Part shown: piece by piece, positions 23,902-48,633 of the stretch | Layout: every line of letters starts with the position of its first letter | Numbering within the stretch: position 1 is the first letter of the stretch | Origin: Sulfuricurvum sp. | Lineage (GTDB): Bacteria; Campylobacterota; Campylobacteria; Campylobacterales; Sulfurimonadaceae | DNA: 64,000 nt | Assembly (NCBI GenBank): GCA_028714915.1 | Contig: JAQTLL010000001.1 | Coordinates: 372,001 to 436,000 of the forward strand | Direction: 5' to 3' | Translations under genes and position numbers: made by a program | Notes under the pieces: generated by a model | What the model was told of the DNA's origin: nothing | The model's input: only the letters and a program-made list of their open reading frames with translations | The model's database searches: none

Positions 23902-25383
23902 ATGGAGAATCGTCCATTGGAGTATGATTACACGGTTGCAAAGTGGTTTATGCTTACAACTGTTGTTCTCGGTATTGTCGGGATGCTTATCGGCGTAATT
24001 TTGGCGTGGGAAATGGCTTTTCCTGCTGTTAATACCATTGCCGGATCAGGATTGGCGGAGTACACAAACTTTAGCCGTCTTCGTCCGTTACATACCGATG
24101 CAGTCATTTTTGGATTTACCCTTAGTGGTATTTTTGCTACGTGGTACTATATAGGTCAACGTGTATTGAAAGTTTCTATGGCAGAGTCAAAGTTTTTAAT
24201 GTTCCTCGGAAAATTGCACTTTACTCTTTATCTATTAGTAGTTGTGGCGGTTGTCGGTTCACTTTTATTAGGAATCACTACGTCTAAAGAATATGCTGAA
24301 TTTGAATGGCCTATTGATATCGCGGTTGTTCTTGTATGGGTTATTTGGGGGATGGGTCTTTTTGGTTTGATCGGTATTCGCCGTGAAAAATCATTGTATA
24401 TCTCTATCTGGTATTACATTGCTACTTTCTTGGGTATTGCGATGTTATATCTTTTCAATAATATGGAAATTCCAACGTATTTTGCGTCAGGCGGAATTGG
24501 GGCATGGTACCATTCAGTTTCAATGTATTCAGGTACTAATGATGCGCTTGTACAATGGTGGTATGGACATAACGCGGTTGCGTTTGGTTTCACAGTACCT
24601 ATCGTAGCGATGATCTATTACTTCCTCCCAAAAGAATCAGGTCAAGCGGTTTATTCATATAAATTGTCTCTCCTTGCATTCTGGGGCTTGATGTTTGTAT
24701 ACCTTTGGGCTGGCGGACACCACTTGTTGTTCTCTACTGTGCCTGACTGGATGCAAACAATGGGTTCTGTATTCTCTGTTGTTTTGATTCTCCCATCATG
24801 GGGTTCTGCAATCAACATGCTTCTTACAATGAAGGGTGAATGGCAACAAGTTGCGGCGAGTCCATTGATTAAATTCATGATTCTTGCATCAACATTCTAT
24901 ATGTTCTCTACTCTTGAAGGTCCAATTCAAGCGATTAAATCGGTTAATGCATTGGCACACTTCACAGACTGGATCGTCGGTCACGTACATGATGGTACTC
25001 TTGGTTGGGTTGGATTCATGATTATGGCAGCATTGTTCCATATGGCTCCACGTGTATTCAAGCGTGAGATTTACTCTAAATCGTTGATGGGTACACAATT
25101 CTGGATTCAAACTCTTGGTGTTGTACTGTATTTCACTTCTATGTGGATTGCTGGTATTACACAGGGTATGATGTGGCGTGCACACGATGAGTTCGGCAAC
25201 CTTGCTTACTCATTTATTGATACGGTTGCGGTATTGCATCCATATTTCACAATCCGTGCGGTTGGTGGTACGTTGTATCTAGTGGGTATGTTGTTGTTTG
25301 CGTACAATATGTACAAAACAATGACAAGTTCTCGTCGTGTTGAAGAGAGTGAACTTCAAAACGCATCGCCAATGGGCGCATAA
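23902..25383 (+). CDS. ccoN: cbb3-type cytochrome c oxidase subunit I
   Basis: Catalytic heme-copper subunit of the high-affinity terminal oxidase, reducing O2 to water in the inner membrane. 493 residues with twelve or more membrane helices. Ligands can be placed: low-spin heme His in RPLHTDAVIFGF, CuB His in WWYGHNAVAFGF, the CuB pair in WAGGHHLLFSTV, and the heme histidines in DWIVGHVHDGTLGW. AGGAGG lies about six bases before the ATG. First gene of ccoNOQP and followed 14 bases later by ccoO. The 290-base upstream region contains structured elements described separately. Confidence 0.97.
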   Translation: MENRPLEYDYTVAKWFMLTTVVLGIVGMLIGVILAWEMAFPAVNTIAGSGLAEYTNFSRLRPLHTDAVIFGFTLSGIFATWYYIGQRVLKVSMAESKFLMFLGKLHFTLYLLVVVAVVGSLLLGITTSKEYAEFEWPIDIAVVLVWVIWGMGLFGLIGIRREKSLYISIWYYIATFLGIAMLYLFNNMEIPTYFASGGIGAWYHSVSMYSGTNDALVQWWYGHNAVAFGFTVPIVAMIYYFLPKESGQAVYSYKLSLLAFWGLMFVYLWAGGHHLLFSTVPDWMQTMGSVFSVVLILPSWGSAINMLLTMKGEWQQVAASPLIKFMILASTFYMFSTLEGPIQAIKSVNALAHFTDWIVGHVHDGTLGWVGFMIMAALFHMAPRVFKREIYSKSLMGTQFWIQTLGVVLYFTSMWIAGITQGMMWRAHDEFGNLAYSFIDTVAVLHPYFTIRAVGGTLYLVGMLLFAYNMYKTMTSSRRVEESELQNASPMGA

Positions 25384-42577: not shown

Positions 42578-42604
42578 TCTTTATTGATACAAAAAGGTCT
42601 AAAG

Positions 42605-43519
42605 ATGGTTCATCGTTATACATCGCCTAAACTTTCACTCATGACGATATTCAAATGGCAGCTCTCCAAACGTTTCACCGTGAAAGACAAAACAACTACC
42701 TCAATGGTGACGCAGCACCACAAAAAGCTTCCTGATGGGGATTATGCGCTTTGGCTGGGGCATGCAAGTGTTTGGATACATCTTGCAGATACCGCCATTG
42801 CCATCGATCCTGTTTTAGGCTCCATCCCCATGTATAAACGCCATACTGTACTTCCGATACCTCAAGAGAACTTACATGCCGATATCATTCTCATTACCCA
42901 TGCCCATTATGACCATTTTGACAAGCCATCGGTTTTAAAACTGCTTTCAAATAATCCCAATACCATTATTGTAGCCCCTTCAGGATTTTGGCGCTATCTA
43001 AAAGGTGATATTACCAGAGAAAAATGTTTTGAACTGGAGTGGTGGGAGTCGGTCATGATAGGAGGGATTTTTATCACCCTCACCCCAAGCAAGCATTGGA
43101 GCAAGCGTACCCCTTTTGACACGAATAAAGCATTATGGGGAGGATACGTCATCCAAACTAAAGAGCAGTGCATCTATCACAGCGGAGATACGGCTAGCGG
43201 AGCGCATTTCAAAGAGATAGGGGAGAAATTTGAAATCAATGAAGCATTTTTACCCATCGGAGCCTATCGCCCTGAAAAGATTATGAAACACAATCACACC
43301 AATCCCCCCGAAGCATTGGAAGCATGTGAGTTGTTGGGAGCTAAAATACTCATCCCCATCCATTATGGGACCTTTAGACTCTCCGATGAACCGCTGGATG
43401 AACCGCTGGAGTGGTTTAACACTCTGAGAAGGACAAATACCTATCCCTTTGAGACTAAAGTTCTAGGTATTGGAGAGATTTATCGTTTGAGGGAAATATC
43501 CACCGTTAAATCCACTTGA
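42605..43519 (+). CDS. metallo-beta-lactamase-fold hydrolase (NAPE-PLD/UlaG-like)
   Basis: A 304-residue soluble enzyme of the NAPE-hydrolysing phospholipase D / UlaG branch. Zinc ligands: LITHAHYDHFDKPS (HxHxDH), a histidine in PSKHWSKRTPFD, SGDTASGAHF and IPIHYGTFRLS. GHASVWI near the N-terminus is the branch marker. Bacterial members may act on phospholipids or other phosphodiesters; the substrate is unknown. The ATG at 42605 has AAGG seven bases upstream; a TTG at 42584 would add seven residues. The 3' end overlaps the convergent YceI gene by 40 bases, an unusually long tail-to-tail overlap. Confidence 0.83.
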   Translation: MVHRYTSPKLSLMTIFKWQLSKRFTVKDKTTTSMVTQHHKKLPDGDYALWLGHASVWIHLADTAIAIDPVLGSIPMYKRHTVLPIPQENLHADIILITHAHYDHFDKPSVLKLLSNNPNTIIVAPSGFWRYLKGDITREKCFELEWWESVMIGGIFITLTPSKHWSKRTPFDTNKALWGGYVIQTKEQCIYHSGDTASGAHFKEIGEKFEINEAFLPIGAYRPEKIMKHNHTNPPEALEACELLGAKILIPIHYGTFRLSDEPLDEPLEWFNTLRRTNTYPFETKVLGIGEIYRLREISTVKST

Positions 43520-44007
43520 TCGCGTACCGTTAGAAACACCATCTTAATGGGTTTGATTCCGAAGTCGGTCATTTTCATGGTGCTTACCGTTTTAATGTGC
43601 ACTTTACCCCCCTCTTCGATAATTGTCCCATCAAAACTCAGTGGTTTTGTTACTCCATGCAAGTTCATTGTCCCCTTGAGCGTATAGTTATTTCCCCCTT
43701 TGGCAACGACCTCTTTGACATCAAAGACCGCTTTGGGAAAACTATCAGATTCGAGAGCTTCTTGCATATGCTCATCACGTTTTTTGTTATCACTGATAAG
43801 ATCGCTCATGGAGACTTCAATCGTCCCTTTTAAGGTTAACGGAGTAGCCTCCATGACTAAATGCGACGTTGCTCTCTTGGCGGTTGGATCAATCGTAGCA
43901 TCCCCAAACACTTCGGTATGGGCTTTAATAGCACCTGATTCAAAACTCAAATTACCGGCATACATCGATGCAACCAGAGCCAACACTGCAATACTTGCTT
44001 TTTTCAT
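43480..44007 (-). CDS. YceI-family periplasmic protein
   Basis: 175 residues with a signal peptide (KKASIAVLALVASMYAGN). The mature YceI fold is an elongated beta-barrel that binds polyisoprenoid chains such as quinones; ATSHLVMEATPLTLKGTIEVS, KAVFDVKEVV and LKGTMNLHGVTKPLSFDGTI are characteristic. AGGAGA precedes the ATG, which overlaps the stop of the upstream membrane protein (ATGA). As the last gene of the operon that includes a heme-copper-oxidase-like subunit, a quinone-linked role is attractive but unproven. Confidence 0.88.
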   Translation of the reverse strand: MKKASIAVLALVASMYAGNLSFESGAIKAHTEVFGDATIDPTAKRATSHLVMEATPLTLKGTIEVSMSDLISDNKKRDEHMQEALESDSFPKAVFDVKEVVAKGGNNYTLKGTMNLHGVTKPLSFDGTIIEEGGKVHIKTVSTMKMTDFGIKPIKMVFLTVRDQVDLTVDISLKR

Positions 44008-44957
44008 ACGGTTCTCCTAAAATAAAATGGATAGATAAAGGCAAAAGTTCCTAACACAGCGAGTGCAATCCAAAGCTGATGATAGAGAGCAACCAAGTTT
44101 GCTATCGACGATGCGCCCCAACCTACCCCTACCATAGCGATTCCAATACTGCGAACATCCCCCATTTGGGTTAACTCACGAAACAATAGAACATTATAAT
44201 ACGAAATAATAATCGGATAGACAATGGCAAGCAGTATCGGCTGATGAGCATAATAGACCCCATAGCTTAGAGTGAAAAGCCCTATAATCACTCCGCTGCT
44301 GCGCATCAATGTTTTGCCATAACGAAACGCCAAATACACTCCTAATAGATGGGATGCAATAATCACTGCCGTATAATGACTCCAAATATCCATCTCACTG
44401 GAGCGACTGAGTGTCTCAAATAAAGCAGAATCGGCAAAAATCCACACCACCATCACCCCTATCATTTTCCAATTTATAGAGATTCTTTTATTCTGTGACT
44501 TCATTGGAAGTGTTGAAAAATAAAGGGCGATCATTGAAACAGTGGGCAAAACAATCGCGATCCCCCCTCTCTCTTCAAACGGATATGTATAGAGCGCCGT
44601 CCCTACCGCATACGAGAGGGCAAGACCAAGCGCGAGGTTTTTTCGGCTTTGTTCCCGAAAACCATAGAGCAGTAGAGGGGTTGTGTATCCCACGATAAAT
44701 CCAAGTACCAATAAAAGTCCCAGTGAATAATCAGGATAAAACCACGAAATCATAATCTGCGTACCAAACATAAAAAAAAGCTCTTCCTTGATCTCTAGGT
44801 GTTTCCAGTATGCTGCGAACAAACTCCCTGTCACCCCACCAATGGGAAGGGTATAAAGATCATAAAGATGCGAGTCAAACGCCCCGACAACTCCCGTCTG
44901 CGCAATCAGGAGATAATAAAGCAACTGAGAACTAAGAACGACCACGAGCATATTCAT
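44004..44957 (-). CDS. polytopic membrane protein of the oxidase-like operon, unknown function
   Basis: A 317-residue protein with about ten predicted membrane helices and no soluble domain. I do not recognise a family; the repeated five-plus-five helix look (break around residues 160-165, at KSQNKRISINW) could reflect a half-transporter-like duplication, similar in size to part of an MFS protein. It is locked into the operon by ATGA overlaps at both ends, with the oxidase-like gene upstream and yceI downstream, so its product should work with them in the inner membrane, perhaps as assembly factor, subunit or transporter. Confidence 0.7.
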   Translation of the reverse strand: MNMLVVVLSSQLLYYLLIAQTGVVGAFDSHLYDLYTLPIGGVTGSLFAAYWKHLEIKEELFFMFGTQIMISWFYPDYSLGLLLVLGFIVGYTTPLLLYGFREQSRKNLALGLALSYAVGTALYTYPFEERGGIAIVLPTVSMIALYFSTLPMKSQNKRISINWKMIGVMVVWIFADSALFETLSRSSEMDIWSHYTAVIIASHLLGVYLAFRYGKTLMRSSGVIIGLFTLSYGVYYAHQPILLAIVYPIIISYYNVLLFRELTQMGDVRSIGIAMVGVGWGASSIANLVALYHQLWIALAVLGTFAFIYPFYFRRTV

Positions 44958-46498
44958 TTACGCAAGCCTAAAAAATAAATCATGGCATATACACCATCAT
45001 AAAAGGCAATCAACAGTGCCAATTCATCCAAAATTCCCGCCATATACAATGCGGCGAATGTCGAAGAGATGAGGAGACGGATGGTTGCGCTGAGGCTTGC
45101 AAGGCGATTTGCATCCCCGTGCAGACCAAACCAGTGAATCATCCCCGTCCCCATGACAAATGCGAACACAACATACTCATACGTTCCGCCAAATGCAAAT
45201 CCAAGCAATCCAAAAAGCCATCCTCCTGCAATCAGCAAAGCCAGCCCACCAAGCGCATCCCCTAAAAACCCTATCAAATGGTAAATTTTTAACGGTGAAT
45301 CGAGAGATAGTCGGAGTCGATCATAGACTATTTTTACCACCAAAGCAACTACTGTTACCCCAAATACGGCACGTACCATCAACAATGGTTCAAGTGTTCC
45401 CCCTATCAGCCCAGCTTCGATAAGCCCCGCGAGGGAAAGGGCTATCGCCATTAAACTCATCAACAATGCCCACGCGGTTGCGTAAACACGCTTGAAAAGA
45501 GAGGGTAACAGATGGTGTGTGATGGAAAGTGCCATAAACGCTACCCCCAATCCCATCGCGATATGGGCATGTCCCACTACCAAATCGTTGCGATGTATCA
45601 AGGCTCGAAGCTGCGGGATAAAGAGGATGTTTCCCTCCACATCGACAAAGATAAACGCCGCGATTGAGAGGATGAGATACGGATTTCTTTTAAAGCTCAC
45701 TCCTGCATCACGGAGCCAAATCCATAGCAATGGCAGATACAGCAATGTCAAATATTGAAAAAACCACTCTTCGTTGTAGCTCAGAGTGTGAAAAAAGTTC
45801 CGAATTATCAAAGAAACAACATATCCTCCCAGCGGAATACTCCACAGCCAATGAAAACGAGGTACAAATACTTTGGGAGAGGAAAGCTTGATGAGCAAAT
45901 AATAGATCGGGATAAGGGTAAAACTCATGCCCAGCGTATTATCCCCATGAGGGCCCACAAGGGTTTTTTCCACCTGACCGTATTGGGGATTCATCAAAAT
46001 CACCAATGCAATGGGGGCGGAGATAACTGCTAAGAGCGATACATTGACCCATAGCGGACGTTTTTTGTAACGTTTCAGTGCATCCAAAAGTGCCAAAAGA
46101 TAAAACACTCCGCTAAAAGCGAGGAGAAAATTCAGCTGATAGGGAAAATCGTAAAAAGGTAATCCCCGAATGTTTCCAAAAAGAAGCGACATACTCATAA
46201 AGAGCAAAAAAACATTCCAAACGACAAAGTAACGTCCCAAATGTTTCAAACCGTTTTGGCTCAGAACACCCTCTTTTTCAAACAGCGCAAAAGGCAACAA
46301 TGAGAGAATCAGAGGAAAGAAGCCGTACAGCATCTGTGAAATATGAAGTGACCGTGCACGTTCAGGCGAGAGAAGGGTCATAGAACCATCCAGTCCCAAC
46401 ATTTCTATGGCGTACACCAGTCCTGCAAAAAGCCCTAAAAAGAGCCAAAACAAGAGAAGCGGGAGATTATCGTTTAGAAATTTTGACAATTTTTCCAT
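44954..46498 (-). CDS. divergent heme-copper oxidase subunit I-like membrane protein
   Basis: A 514-residue protein with about fourteen membrane helices. It aligns by motif with CcoN of this window: low-spin heme His H52 in RSLHISQMLYGF (CcoN RPLHTDAVIFGF), CuB-type His H184 in GPHGDNTLGMSF, H237 in NFFHTLSYNEEW where CcoN has the HH pair, and H310/H312 in DLVVGHAHIAMG (CcoN DWIVGHVHDGTL). F236 replaces the first histidine of the HH pair, so the CuB site would be altered; atypical nitric oxide reductases are known to vary at this site. ATG 46498 touches a GGAGG; TTG 46489 (nine bases from it) is the better-spaced start. Overlaps the ABC ATPase gene by 23-32 bases. Could be an unusual oxidase, NO reductase or heme sensor. 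Confidence 0.7.
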   Translation of the reverse strand: MEKLSKFLNDNLPLLLFWLFLGLFAGLVYAIEMLGLDGSMTLLSPERARSLHISQMLYGFFPLILSLLPFALFEKEGVLSQNGLKHLGRYFVVWNVFLLFMSMSLLFGNIRGLPFYDFPYQLNFLLAFSGVFYLLALLDALKRYKKRPLWVNVSLLAVISAPIALVILMNPQYGQVEKTLVGPHGDNTLGMSFTLIPIYYLLIKLSSPKVFVPRFHWLWSIPLGGYVVSLIIRNFFHTLSYNEEWFFQYLTLLYLPLLWIWLRDAGVSFKRNPYLILSIAAFIFVDVEGNILFIPQLRALIHRNDLVVGHAHIAMGLGVAFMALSITHHLLPSLFKRVYATAWALLMSLMAIALSLAGLIEAGLIGGTLEPLLMVRAVFGVTVVALVVKIVYDRLRLSLDSPLKIYHLIGFLGDALGGLALLIAGGWLFGLLGFAFGGTYEYVVFAFVMGTGMIHWFGLHGDANRLASLSATIRLLISSTFAALYMAGILDELALLIAFYDGVYAMIYFLGLRK

Positions 46499-47102
46499 CC
46501 TCCATTTCTATGATTGTATCGGCATACTCGGCTATTTTTTTATCATGGGACGCGACCACAAATCCTGTCCCACCTTGCGAAAAACGTTTGAACAATTCAT
46601 AAACACCCAACGCATTTTTCGTGTCCAGATTGCCCGTGGGCTCATCGGCGAACACTACGGCGGGGCGATTTACCAGTGCTCGTGCGATAGCGGCGCGCTG
46701 ACGTTCACCCCCTGAAACCTCATCACTGTAACGAGCGGCTAATCGCCCAATTCCCAGACTCTCCATCAGTGGCTCAACGCTCTCATCATCCAAAGCAGAG
46801 AGGGCAATATTTTCACGCAACGTCAAATAGGAGATAAGATAGTGAAACTGAAATACAAATCCGATATTGTGCCGTCTAAACACATCGATATTTCCGAGTT
46901 CACCGACACTCTTTCCATCAAATGTCACTTCTCCGCTTGTAGGATTGAGCAATGTTGAGAGAATTGACAAGAGCGTTGTTTTTCCGCTCCCGCTCTCTCC
47001 GATAATCGCCGTAAAACTTCCTGCTTCGATTTCAACATTGACCTCTCGCAAAACATATTCTATCCCATAATACTGCTCTATATTTTTGGCTTGGATTCTC
47101 AT
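46467..47102 (-). CDS. ABC transporter ATPase (LolD/MacB type)
   Basis: A 211-residue nucleotide-binding protein: Walker A IIGESGSGKTTLLSIL, signature SDEVSGGERQRAAIARALV, Walker B VVFADEPTGNLD, and the D-loop and H-loop (ASHDKKIAEYAD). The FQFHYLISYLTLRENI region is typical for the LolD/FtsE/MacB branch, which powers mechanotransmission through FtsX-like permeases rather than simple transport. It overlaps the permease gene by four bases and the oxidase-like gene by about 30, so the three are made together. Confidence 0.92.
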   Translation of the reverse strand: MRIQAKNIEQYYGIEYVLREVNVEIEAGSFTAIIGESGSGKTTLLSILSTLLNPTSGEVTFDGKSVGELGNIDVFRRHNIGFVFQFHYLISYLTLRENIALSALDDESVEPLMESLGIGRLAARYSDEVSGGERQRAAIARALVNRPAVVFADEPTGNLDTKNALGVYELFKRFSQGGTGFVVASHDKKIAEYADTIIEMEDGKIVKISKR

Positions 47103-48178
47103 GAACCGCCTCGCTGTATCAGCGTCATCGGGTCAATGCGTGCTGCATAAATCGCAGGAAGAAGCGTCCCCAACATCGCCATCACCACCGAGACAATAAA
47201 AACATTGAGCGCCAAGGAAACAGTAATCTCCCCGTTAATGTACCCTTGAAACTTATCCGCATGTTCAATCAGCTCCAGCACACCAAGCGATACCCCCAAA
47301 GCGACACAAAATGCCACCAGTGCAATAATCAATGTTTCCGCCAAAAGCTTTTTGATAATTACCCACGAGGAGAGTCCGATGGAGCGCATAATCCCAAACT
47401 CTGTTTTACGATCATTGACTACCATACTCATCATGCTCACAATCCCTAAAATTCCCATCAGGAATGCCATCGCTCCAATCACGTCGGAGCTGGTTTTAAT
47501 AATCTTAAACTGATTGTACGAGTCGATAAAACTGTCGGTTGTTTTAGCTTCAATATCAGGAGTAAGGAGATTAATTTTTTCAATGACAGTATCACTTTTA
47601 GTTAGATCATCCAAACTTACCAAAAATATTGAGGCACTTTTGTGAAACAACGCACCTGCATCCTCCAAGCTCATCACCACACCGCCGTCTTCAAACCCGA
47701 TACGGCTTTTAAACACACCTCTTACGGTAAATTTTTGCTTGGAGAGGATGATTGTTTTGGGATGCTTGAGCGTTTCATAAAGTTTAGAACCCACTATCAC
47801 TTCCCCGTTTTTTGGAGTGGAGCCTTGGATTAGCGTATAACTCTTAAAACGGTTCTCACTCACCCCATAGATCCCCACAATAGGCAGTGGTTCGACGGGT
47901 GCAGCTCCCAAAATCAAAGCACCTGCTTCACGTACCCCCTCCATCTTGGCAATCTCATCACACATCGAGCGGTTAATGTCACTGAAAAAAGTATCGGCAA
48001 TCCCTTTTTGTGTGACGATAATGTCCCCATCGGTTTTAAGCATTGCAGAGTACATACTTACCACCCCCCCCGATATGGCGCTGATAAGGAAAATCGCTGA
48101 AATAGAGACACTCATACTGATAAAGATGAGTGCCGTTTTAAAGCGATTCTTTCGAAGCGCTTTGATCGGGGTTATCAC
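47099..48178 (-). CDS. FtsX/MacB-type ABC permease
   Basis: A 359-residue permease with one N-terminal helix, a large periplasmic domain (about 40-230) and three C-terminal helices, the MacB/LolC layout. KALRKNRFKTALIFISMSVS at the start and FGIMRSIGLSSWVIIKKLLAE in the first cytoplasmic coupling loop are characteristic; the C-terminus has MLGTLLPAIYAARIDPMTLIQRG. GTG start, overlapping by one base the stop of the periplasmic protein gene. In other systems such permeases extract lipoproteins or export peptides; within this operon a role in cofactor, metal or subunit delivery to the oxidase-like protein is possible. Confidence 0.88.
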   Translation of the reverse strand: MITPIKALRKNRFKTALIFISMSVSISAIFLISAISGGVVSMYSAMLKTDGDIIVTQKGIADTFFSDINRSMCDEIAKMEGVREAGALILGAAPVEPLPIVGIYGVSENRFKSYTLIQGSTPKNGEVIVGSKLYETLKHPKTIILSKQKFTVRGVFKSRIGFEDGGVVMSLEDAGALFHKSASIFLVSLDDLTKSDTVIEKINLLTPDIEAKTTDSFIDSYNQFKIIKTSSDVIGAMAFLMGILGIVSMMSMVVNDRKTEFGIMRSIGLSSWVIIKKLLAETLIIALVAFCVALGVSLGVLELIEHADKFQGYINGEITVSLALNVFIVSVVMAMLGTLLPAIYAARIDPMTLIQRGGS

Positions 48179-48633
48179 TACTCAATCGCCTGTTTCAGTT
48201 CTGCTGCCGTGGAGACAAATTCGATTTGTGTCAGGAAGTTGCCCCGAAATTTCATCACCGTGATCTTCTCTTCTTGGGCAGGAAATTTTAATCCCTGCTC
48301 TTCATCACGAATCAACAAAACCGTATGGGCATATTTGCGCATTTTAGGCAGAGCAAACGCTTCGGTGATAAAGTTGGGCATTTGACTAATGTCCGCAACA
48401 AACGCTGCATTATTCTTTTTTAAATATCCCTTGTCTTGCGTTGCCAAATACTCATTGACCGTCGCACCCGTCCCTTTTTCAAACGCCATAATCAACGTTT
48501 TTGGCATCGCTTTAAGCGTGGTACGTTTGCCAAACTGATCTTGCAAATCTAACGGCATAACCGATTGCCCCATTTTATAGGGGGCTCCAAAAAGGCTTAG
48601 TGCCAAGAGGGCGAAGAGTATAACTTTTTGCAT
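48178..48633 (-). CDS. YtfJ-like periplasmic thioredoxin-fold protein
   Basis: 151 residues with a signal peptide (KVILFALLALSLFGAP). The mature part follows the peroxiredoxin/TlpA-like fold: LDLQDQFGKRTTLKAMPKTLIM at the front and VADISQMPNFITEAFALPKMR followed by HTVLLIRDEEQGLKFPAQ, close to the pattern of YtfJ-type proteins. There is no cysteine at the usual active-site position, so thiol chemistry is unlikely. First gene of the five-gene operon ahead of yceI; the permease start overlaps its stop. Confidence 0.72.
   Translation of the reverse strand: MQKVILFALLALSLFGAPYKMGQSVMPLDLQDQFGKRTTLKAMPKTLIMAFEKGTGATVNEYLATQDKGYLKKNNAAFVADISQMPNFITEAFALPKMRKYAHTVLLIRDEEQGLKFPAQEEKITVMKFRGNFLTQIEFVSTAAELKQAIE

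Follow-up and report, generated by a model that had tools for sequence, protein, structure and literature searches.

The window analysed here, a 64-kb stretch of Sulfuricurvum DNA whose numbering is used throughout, carries six leftward open reading frames at 43480-48633, designated A, B, C, D, E and F. ORF calls verified the coordinates given for this block in a preliminary description, together with its overlaps of 1 to 32 bases: 1 bp at the A/B junction, 4 bp at B/C, 32 bp at C/D and 4 bp at both D/E and E/F. On this minus strand, A (48178-48633) encodes a secreted protein of 151 residues and of no known family, its signal peptide judged by eye; B (47099-48178) a 359-residue ABC permease of the FtsX/MacB/LolC type (PF02687, 1.7e-18; PF12704, 2.6e-12; matches to MacB and LolF structures); and C (46467-47102) a 211-residue LolD/FtsE-type ABC ATPase (PF00005, 3.3e-34). 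D (44954-46498) is a CcoN-related protein of the heme-copper oxidase (HCO) superfamily, 514 residues long with about 16 predicted helices, E (44004-44957) a short membrane transporter of 317 residues with an MFS fold, and F (43480-44007) a periplasmic lipocalin of the YceI family, of a branch tied to D. As described before, no CuA or cytochrome c subunit through which electrons could enter an HCO is found among the six genes. On the plus strand, 42584-43519 encodes a NAPE-PLD-like phosphodiesterase of the metallo-beta-lactamase fold, tail to tail with F and overlapping it by 40 bp. This gene is probably a seventh part of the module; lying outside 43480-48633, it had been missed when the boundary was drawn around the six genes, which themselves stand.

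The labels first given to these genes fared unevenly. Assignment of B and C to a LolDE/MacB-type transporter is borne out by their FtsX and LolD Pfam matches; both remain below the LolCDE equivalog thresholds, with 189 bits for C against the LolD model TIGR02211 (cut-off 308) and 56 bits for the LolC/E equivalog (cut-off 362). F is a YceI protein by its score against PF04264 (73.5 bits, gathering cut-off 23.7; 3.1e-20) and by YceI structures, and it belongs to a branch that sits at the module, distinct from the other YceI genes of the genome. E, known until now only as a polytopic membrane protein, is indeed one and can be specified further: although no sequence family matched it, its AlphaFold2 model (pLDDT 92) has an MFS fold, the top PDB matches listed being MFS transporters (best E 1.2e-5, probability 1.0), and R130, D176, E181, R185 and H203 are invariant. 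The YtfJ label for A had to be dropped. PF09695 (YtfJ) matched none of 24 members, the alignment with E. coli YtfJ reached 18.6% probability and covered the leader only, and nearly all members are without cysteine, which led us to reject a YtfJ or thioredoxin role. The protein is exported by its leader, and Pfam, NCBIfam and PDB returned no match for it.

The operon is a conserved unit beyond chance, given its recurrence in 18 genera, the strict co-occurrence of D and E and the reappearance of the same junction overlaps across module loci. Of 397 Campylobacterota genomes drawn evenly, 60 have D; they come from 18 of the 68 genera, and the set spans at least five families. A search with E's own profile returned exactly the same 60 genomes, none having only one of the two; the D profile search of this draw gave only two further matches, both marginal. 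Strong D matches were also obtained in most of 60 close relatives, and tblastn on 32 loci recovered the gene set in nearly all, contig ends allowing. Sulfuricurvum, Sulfurospirillum, Sulfurimonas, Sulfurovum, several Arcobacter-type genera and a Nitratifractor MAG are among the matches listed. The six-gene set is thus conserved in relatives, a check that the earlier proposal withstands, with the order B-C-D-E-F mostly kept; Sulfurovum types place E-F ahead of B, and A is mobile, standing first, after F or after D. Presence beyond Campylobacterota was sought by a peptide-pattern scan of GTDB genomes with D, and the best 80 matches listed, besides which there are 25 weaker ones, are all Campylobacterota-looking or ambiguously titled MAGs. 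Pairwise distances of the module genes correlate at 0.81-0.95, which says little without a background control.

Individual loci depart from this pattern in several ways. In a Sulfurovaceae MAG (L108), each of the five genes compared has higher identity to Sulfuricurvum (0.53-0.70) than to modules of the Sulfurovum type (0.32-0.51), a pattern suggestive of transfer of the whole block. Two Sulfurospirillum copies are decayed, one with eight stops in D (G420:C1:1208652-1210187) and one with E broken into two parts separated by about 0.9 kb (G055:C1:1010059-1011931). In some Campylobacterota (L132, L143, L151 and L157), genes for an outer-membrane-barrel-like protein and a small periplasmic phosphate-binding-like protein (families f46/f47) lie beside or inside the module, at L151 between D and E. 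A Nitratifractor-type genome carries B-C-D-E without F (L163, G041:C27/C30), and its F-type YceI gene remains linked to a YaeI-like phosphoesterase gene on another contig. A fusion of the ATPase with D was considered and rejected; most of the long frames are open frames that overlap, and the single in-frame case (L106/L062) comes from a MAG, has parts of both proteins missing and is not trusted.

HCO subunit I proteins are textbook O2 or NO reductases. The likeness of D to them, claimed in the preliminary description, is sub-threshold in sequence, with 30 bits against COX1 (cut-off 34.8) and a weak 28 bits against the CcoN model (cut-off 583), and PDB sequence searches with D, as with A, gave nothing useful. 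The predicted structure is what upholds it. A template-free AlphaFold2 model (pLDDT 85, pTM 0.85, with low confidence in the loop around H184) contains the 12-helix fold of HCO subunit I, and Foldseek returned cbb3 CcoN as its best PDB match (E 5.6e-06, probability 1.0), with cNOR next; the matches to 9g83, 8smr and 3mk7 all have probability 1.0 and TM values of 0.56-0.66. By this model, D is a member of the HCO superfamily nearest to cbb3 subunit I. Its helices number roughly four more than those of CcoN, and the additional ones form a C-terminal extension with invariant D414, H455, R474 and D501.

Ligands were assigned by aligning D with the CcoN and NorB proteins of the same genomes. D retains H52 and H312, the positions that ligate the low-spin heme, H310, which corresponds to the ligand of the high-spin heme, and H302, a residue shared in the alignment; the helix II and helix X heme histidines H52, H310 and H312 are conserved in 79/79, 81/81 and 81/81 sequences, respectively. 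The copper site is lost. On helix VI, the position of the CuB/FeB ligand is taken by Asp186 instead of His in 81/81 sequences; helix VII has lost its His-His pair, residues 231/232 being mostly L/I/A/V and I/Y/T/H. The His-His dipeptide is absent from the helix VII region in 80 of the 81 sequences and present in one, and positions 205-262 contain no conserved His, whatever the details of the alignment. H184, D186, R233, E244 and W245 are invariant in all 81. With the three CuB/FeB ligand positions lost throughout the family, D is unlikely to reduce O2 or NO in the manner usual for HCOs, and the alignment argues strongly that it would be unable to act as a standard O2 or NO reductase. Its retained ligands suggest that it binds two hemes b, and one may speculate that H184 caps the second of them. 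An HCO subunit I branch with its heme ligands kept and its whole CuB site gone would, if this is true, represent a reuse of the superfamily for electron transfer. There is also a practical consequence, as the D gene can be annotated 'cytochrome c oxidase subunit I' and so be wrongly counted among the oxidases or NO reductases.

The distribution of other HCO genes bears on the same question. The window genome has a cbb3 operon from 23902 onward (cbb3 gene at 23902-25383), a cNorCB pair and a gNOR-like gene accompanied by one for a small cupredoxin-like subunit. The gNOR-like HCO (L167, G000:C1:8764-10209) has 553 residues, an Asp in helix VI and His-His in helix VII; its neighbour encodes a 196-residue cupredoxin-like subunit, and the cNOR and cbb3 genes lie elsewhere in the genome. 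Classification of D itself as a gNOR was rejected, both because a profile comparison gave E 0.84 over 6 columns and because of this separate gene. In five nearly complete module-positive genomes (G387, G410, G252, G293 and G404), the HCO search found only cbb3 and D; the HCO match lists of G410 and G414 were read in the same manner. The module has no tie to denitrification, as several nearly complete genomes that carry it showed no HCO-type NO reductase in this search; NOR-type genes are frequent in module-negative Sulfurimonas genomes. Separately, the four module-negative Sulfuricurvum genomes tested (G020, G028, G030 and G031) contain a COX1-family gene of about 570 residues, scoring about 500 bits, which is absent from tested module-positive Sulfuricurvum. 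A link between the module and loss of an aa3-like oxidase in Sulfuricurvum was nevertheless rejected as not strict, because G335 and G278 carry both.

The phosphodiesterase encoded at 42584-43519 aligns with human NAPE-PLD (4qn9; E 3.2e-34 over 231 residues), including the HxHxDH metal motif (THAHYDH), and belongs to that family. Its gene is usually tail to tail with the YceI gene in Sulfuricurvum and codirectional with the module in Sulfurovum types, and the family is found within 300 bp of the module in 25 loci. The tie is loose in Sulfuricurvum, since module-negative members also have the gene. A YaeI/LpxG-like phosphoesterase takes its place in the loci of Arcobacter types, Sulfurospirillum and Sulfurimonas; the short form of this enzyme lies at the module in most module-positive genomes of its families and is absent from module-negative Sulfurimonas. 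The two families are unrelated and occur in 29 (NAPE-PLD-like) and 38 (YaeI/LpxG-like) loci, with both in 0 of 67; the split follows clades rather than many independent events. Both NAPE-PLD and LpxG have lipid substrates. The module of Arcobacter-type loci is followed by a two-component pair, whose best matches are heavy-metal-type and HprR regulators, below the curated cut-offs (TIGR01387, 247 bits for the regulator; TIGR01386, 239 bits for the kinase).

How these parts might work together is suggested by the YceI protein. YceI lipocalins bind isoprenoid lipids and quinones and are elsewhere paired with cytochrome b561; BcnA (YceI), LcoA (a di-heme b cytochrome b561) and PsrA shield membranes from lipid peroxyl radicals (PMC9113575). 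A conventional YceI-cytochrome b561 pair elsewhere in the genomes studied here was looked for by coordinates, and no YceI gene directly beside a b561 gene was seen in 36 genomes, so D could fill the place of b561. From this pairing, and from the coupling of D to F, comes our proposal of electron transfer between D and the YceI-bound ligand. The operon would be a dedicated inner-membrane/periplasm system in which D, with ligands for both heme sites and no copper site, would probably exchange electrons with the menaquinone pool on the one hand and the periplasmic side on the other, rather than reduce a gas. F may carry an isoprenoid lipid, quinone or oxidised lipid in the periplasm and would be the likely redox partner of D; electron transfer by D would then link menaquinone to the lipid or quinone that YceI binds. 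Extraction or movement of the lipid, or of its product, could fall to the ABC transporter (B2C2, LolDE/MacB-type) and the MFS protein E, and its processing to the lipid phosphodiesterase, which is apparently cytosolic and is NAPE-PLD-like in the window and YaeI/LpxG-like in other families. What the sequences and models show is a conserved unit, the folds of its parts, the kept heme ligands, the missing CuB site and the linked phosphodiesterases. We infer the heme content of D, from its ligands, and its electron donor; the lipid substrate and the direction of transport are guesses.

Together, these parts would serve to repair, recycle or protect the lipids or quinones of the envelope, and this is the reading we tentatively prefer, with confidence well short of even. 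It is equally tentative that a CuB-less HCO branch has here become the heme-b electron carrier of an envelope lipid/quinone repair-recycling system of free-living Campylobacterota. Of the earlier proposal, a membrane redox system with a lipid- or quinone-binding partner, distinct from cbb3, is still reasonable; the NO/O2 handling assigned to it is not, since the CuB/FeB histidines are not conserved across the family and several positive genomes lack an HCO-type NO reductase. An O2/NO-reducing HCO complex with its own assembly machinery is accordingly a very improbable account: the fold and the heme ligands are those of an HCO, yet the metal ligands are missing and D shows no tie to NOR genes, so D was rejected as an NO/O2 reductase, and a window genome with cbb3, cNOR and a gNOR-like enzyme, like the positives with only cbb3 and D, speaks against it too. 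A variant active site is easier to accommodate and still unlikely. Here H184 and D186, with invariant R233/E244, would hold another metal or none, and D would reduce some other small substrate at the high-spin heme. The invariance of these residues and of W245, the kept ligand H310 and the active-site Asp listed for gNOR (PMC8756737) are in keeping with this; the missing helix VII His pair, and an operon without CuA or cytochrome c subunit, are not.

The main rival of the lipid/quinone reading is metal or heme handling, which we consider rather unlikely. In this case D would act as a heme-b reductase to alter a metal's redox state, or would handle heme, and the FtsX/LolD pump and MFS protein would move the cargo. 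FtsX/LolD pairs accompany metal systems elsewhere, which counts for this rival, and P19/Fet iron-uptake clusters also carry FtsX/LolD genes, which we treat only as a lead. The heavy-metal-type matches of the Arcobacter regulator and kinase and the MFS fold of E fit as well. Against it, no known metal-binding protein is among the module genes, no Fur-like box was noticed by eye upstream, and the YceI and NAPE-PLD-like parts point to lipids. Against the lipid/quinone reading, metals, heme or drugs could also be the cargo of E and the ABC pair, the regulator match points to metal/peroxide stress as much as to lipids, and the phosphodiesterase argument is weakened by the loose link in Sulfuricurvum and the clade-wise split. 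An ABC-driven envelope machine related to lipoprotein or LPS, with D as only a structural or sensory heme protein, is quite unlikely. B and C resemble LolCDE/MacB, and the YaeI-like neighbours also resemble LpxG; however, B and C are far below the LolC/E and LolD equivalog cut-offs, and invariant heme ligands suggest that a redox function was retained.

The literature searched contains no description of the module, of a CuB-less HCO branch or of their combination. HCO folds, YceI proteins, LolDE-type ABC transporters and MFS proteins are known kinds; the CuB-less branch and the combination are undescribed there, and if the lipid/quinone reading is true, free-living Campylobacterota gain an envelope system without a described counterpart in that literature. 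The closest relative of D, cbb3 subunit I (CcoN, a C-type HCO), shares its fold, helix order and H52, H310, H312 and H302; D differs in having no CuB histidines and no CcoO or CcoP partners, in its extra C-terminal helices with invariant H455, and in its setting among an ABC pump, an MFS protein and YceI. The NO reductases (cNOR NorB and gNOR) belong to the same superfamily, and gNOR also has an active-site Asp (PMC8756737), whereas D has neither the FeB ligands nor a NorC or cupredoxin subunit, its profile match to gNOR is nil, and real cNOR and gNOR-like genes are found elsewhere in the window genome. To LolCDE, MacB and FtsEX (type VII ABC systems) the module is similar in its FtsX-type permease B and LolD-type ATPase C, and dissimilar in their scores far below the equivalog cut-offs, its single permease gene and its redox partners. 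The 42584-43519 product resembles human NAPE-PLD in its aligned residues and metal motif but is bacterial, its gene only loosely tied to the module in Sulfuricurvum. The BcnA-LcoA-PsrA system (PMC9113575) links a YceI lipocalin, a heme-b membrane protein and a cytoplasmic enzyme, and the module would resemble it, with D a putative heme-b protein by its ligands; in the module, however, this protein is HCO-related rather than a cytochrome b561, the apparently cytosolic enzyme is a phosphodiesterase rather than an aldehyde reductase, and ABC and MFS transporters are added.
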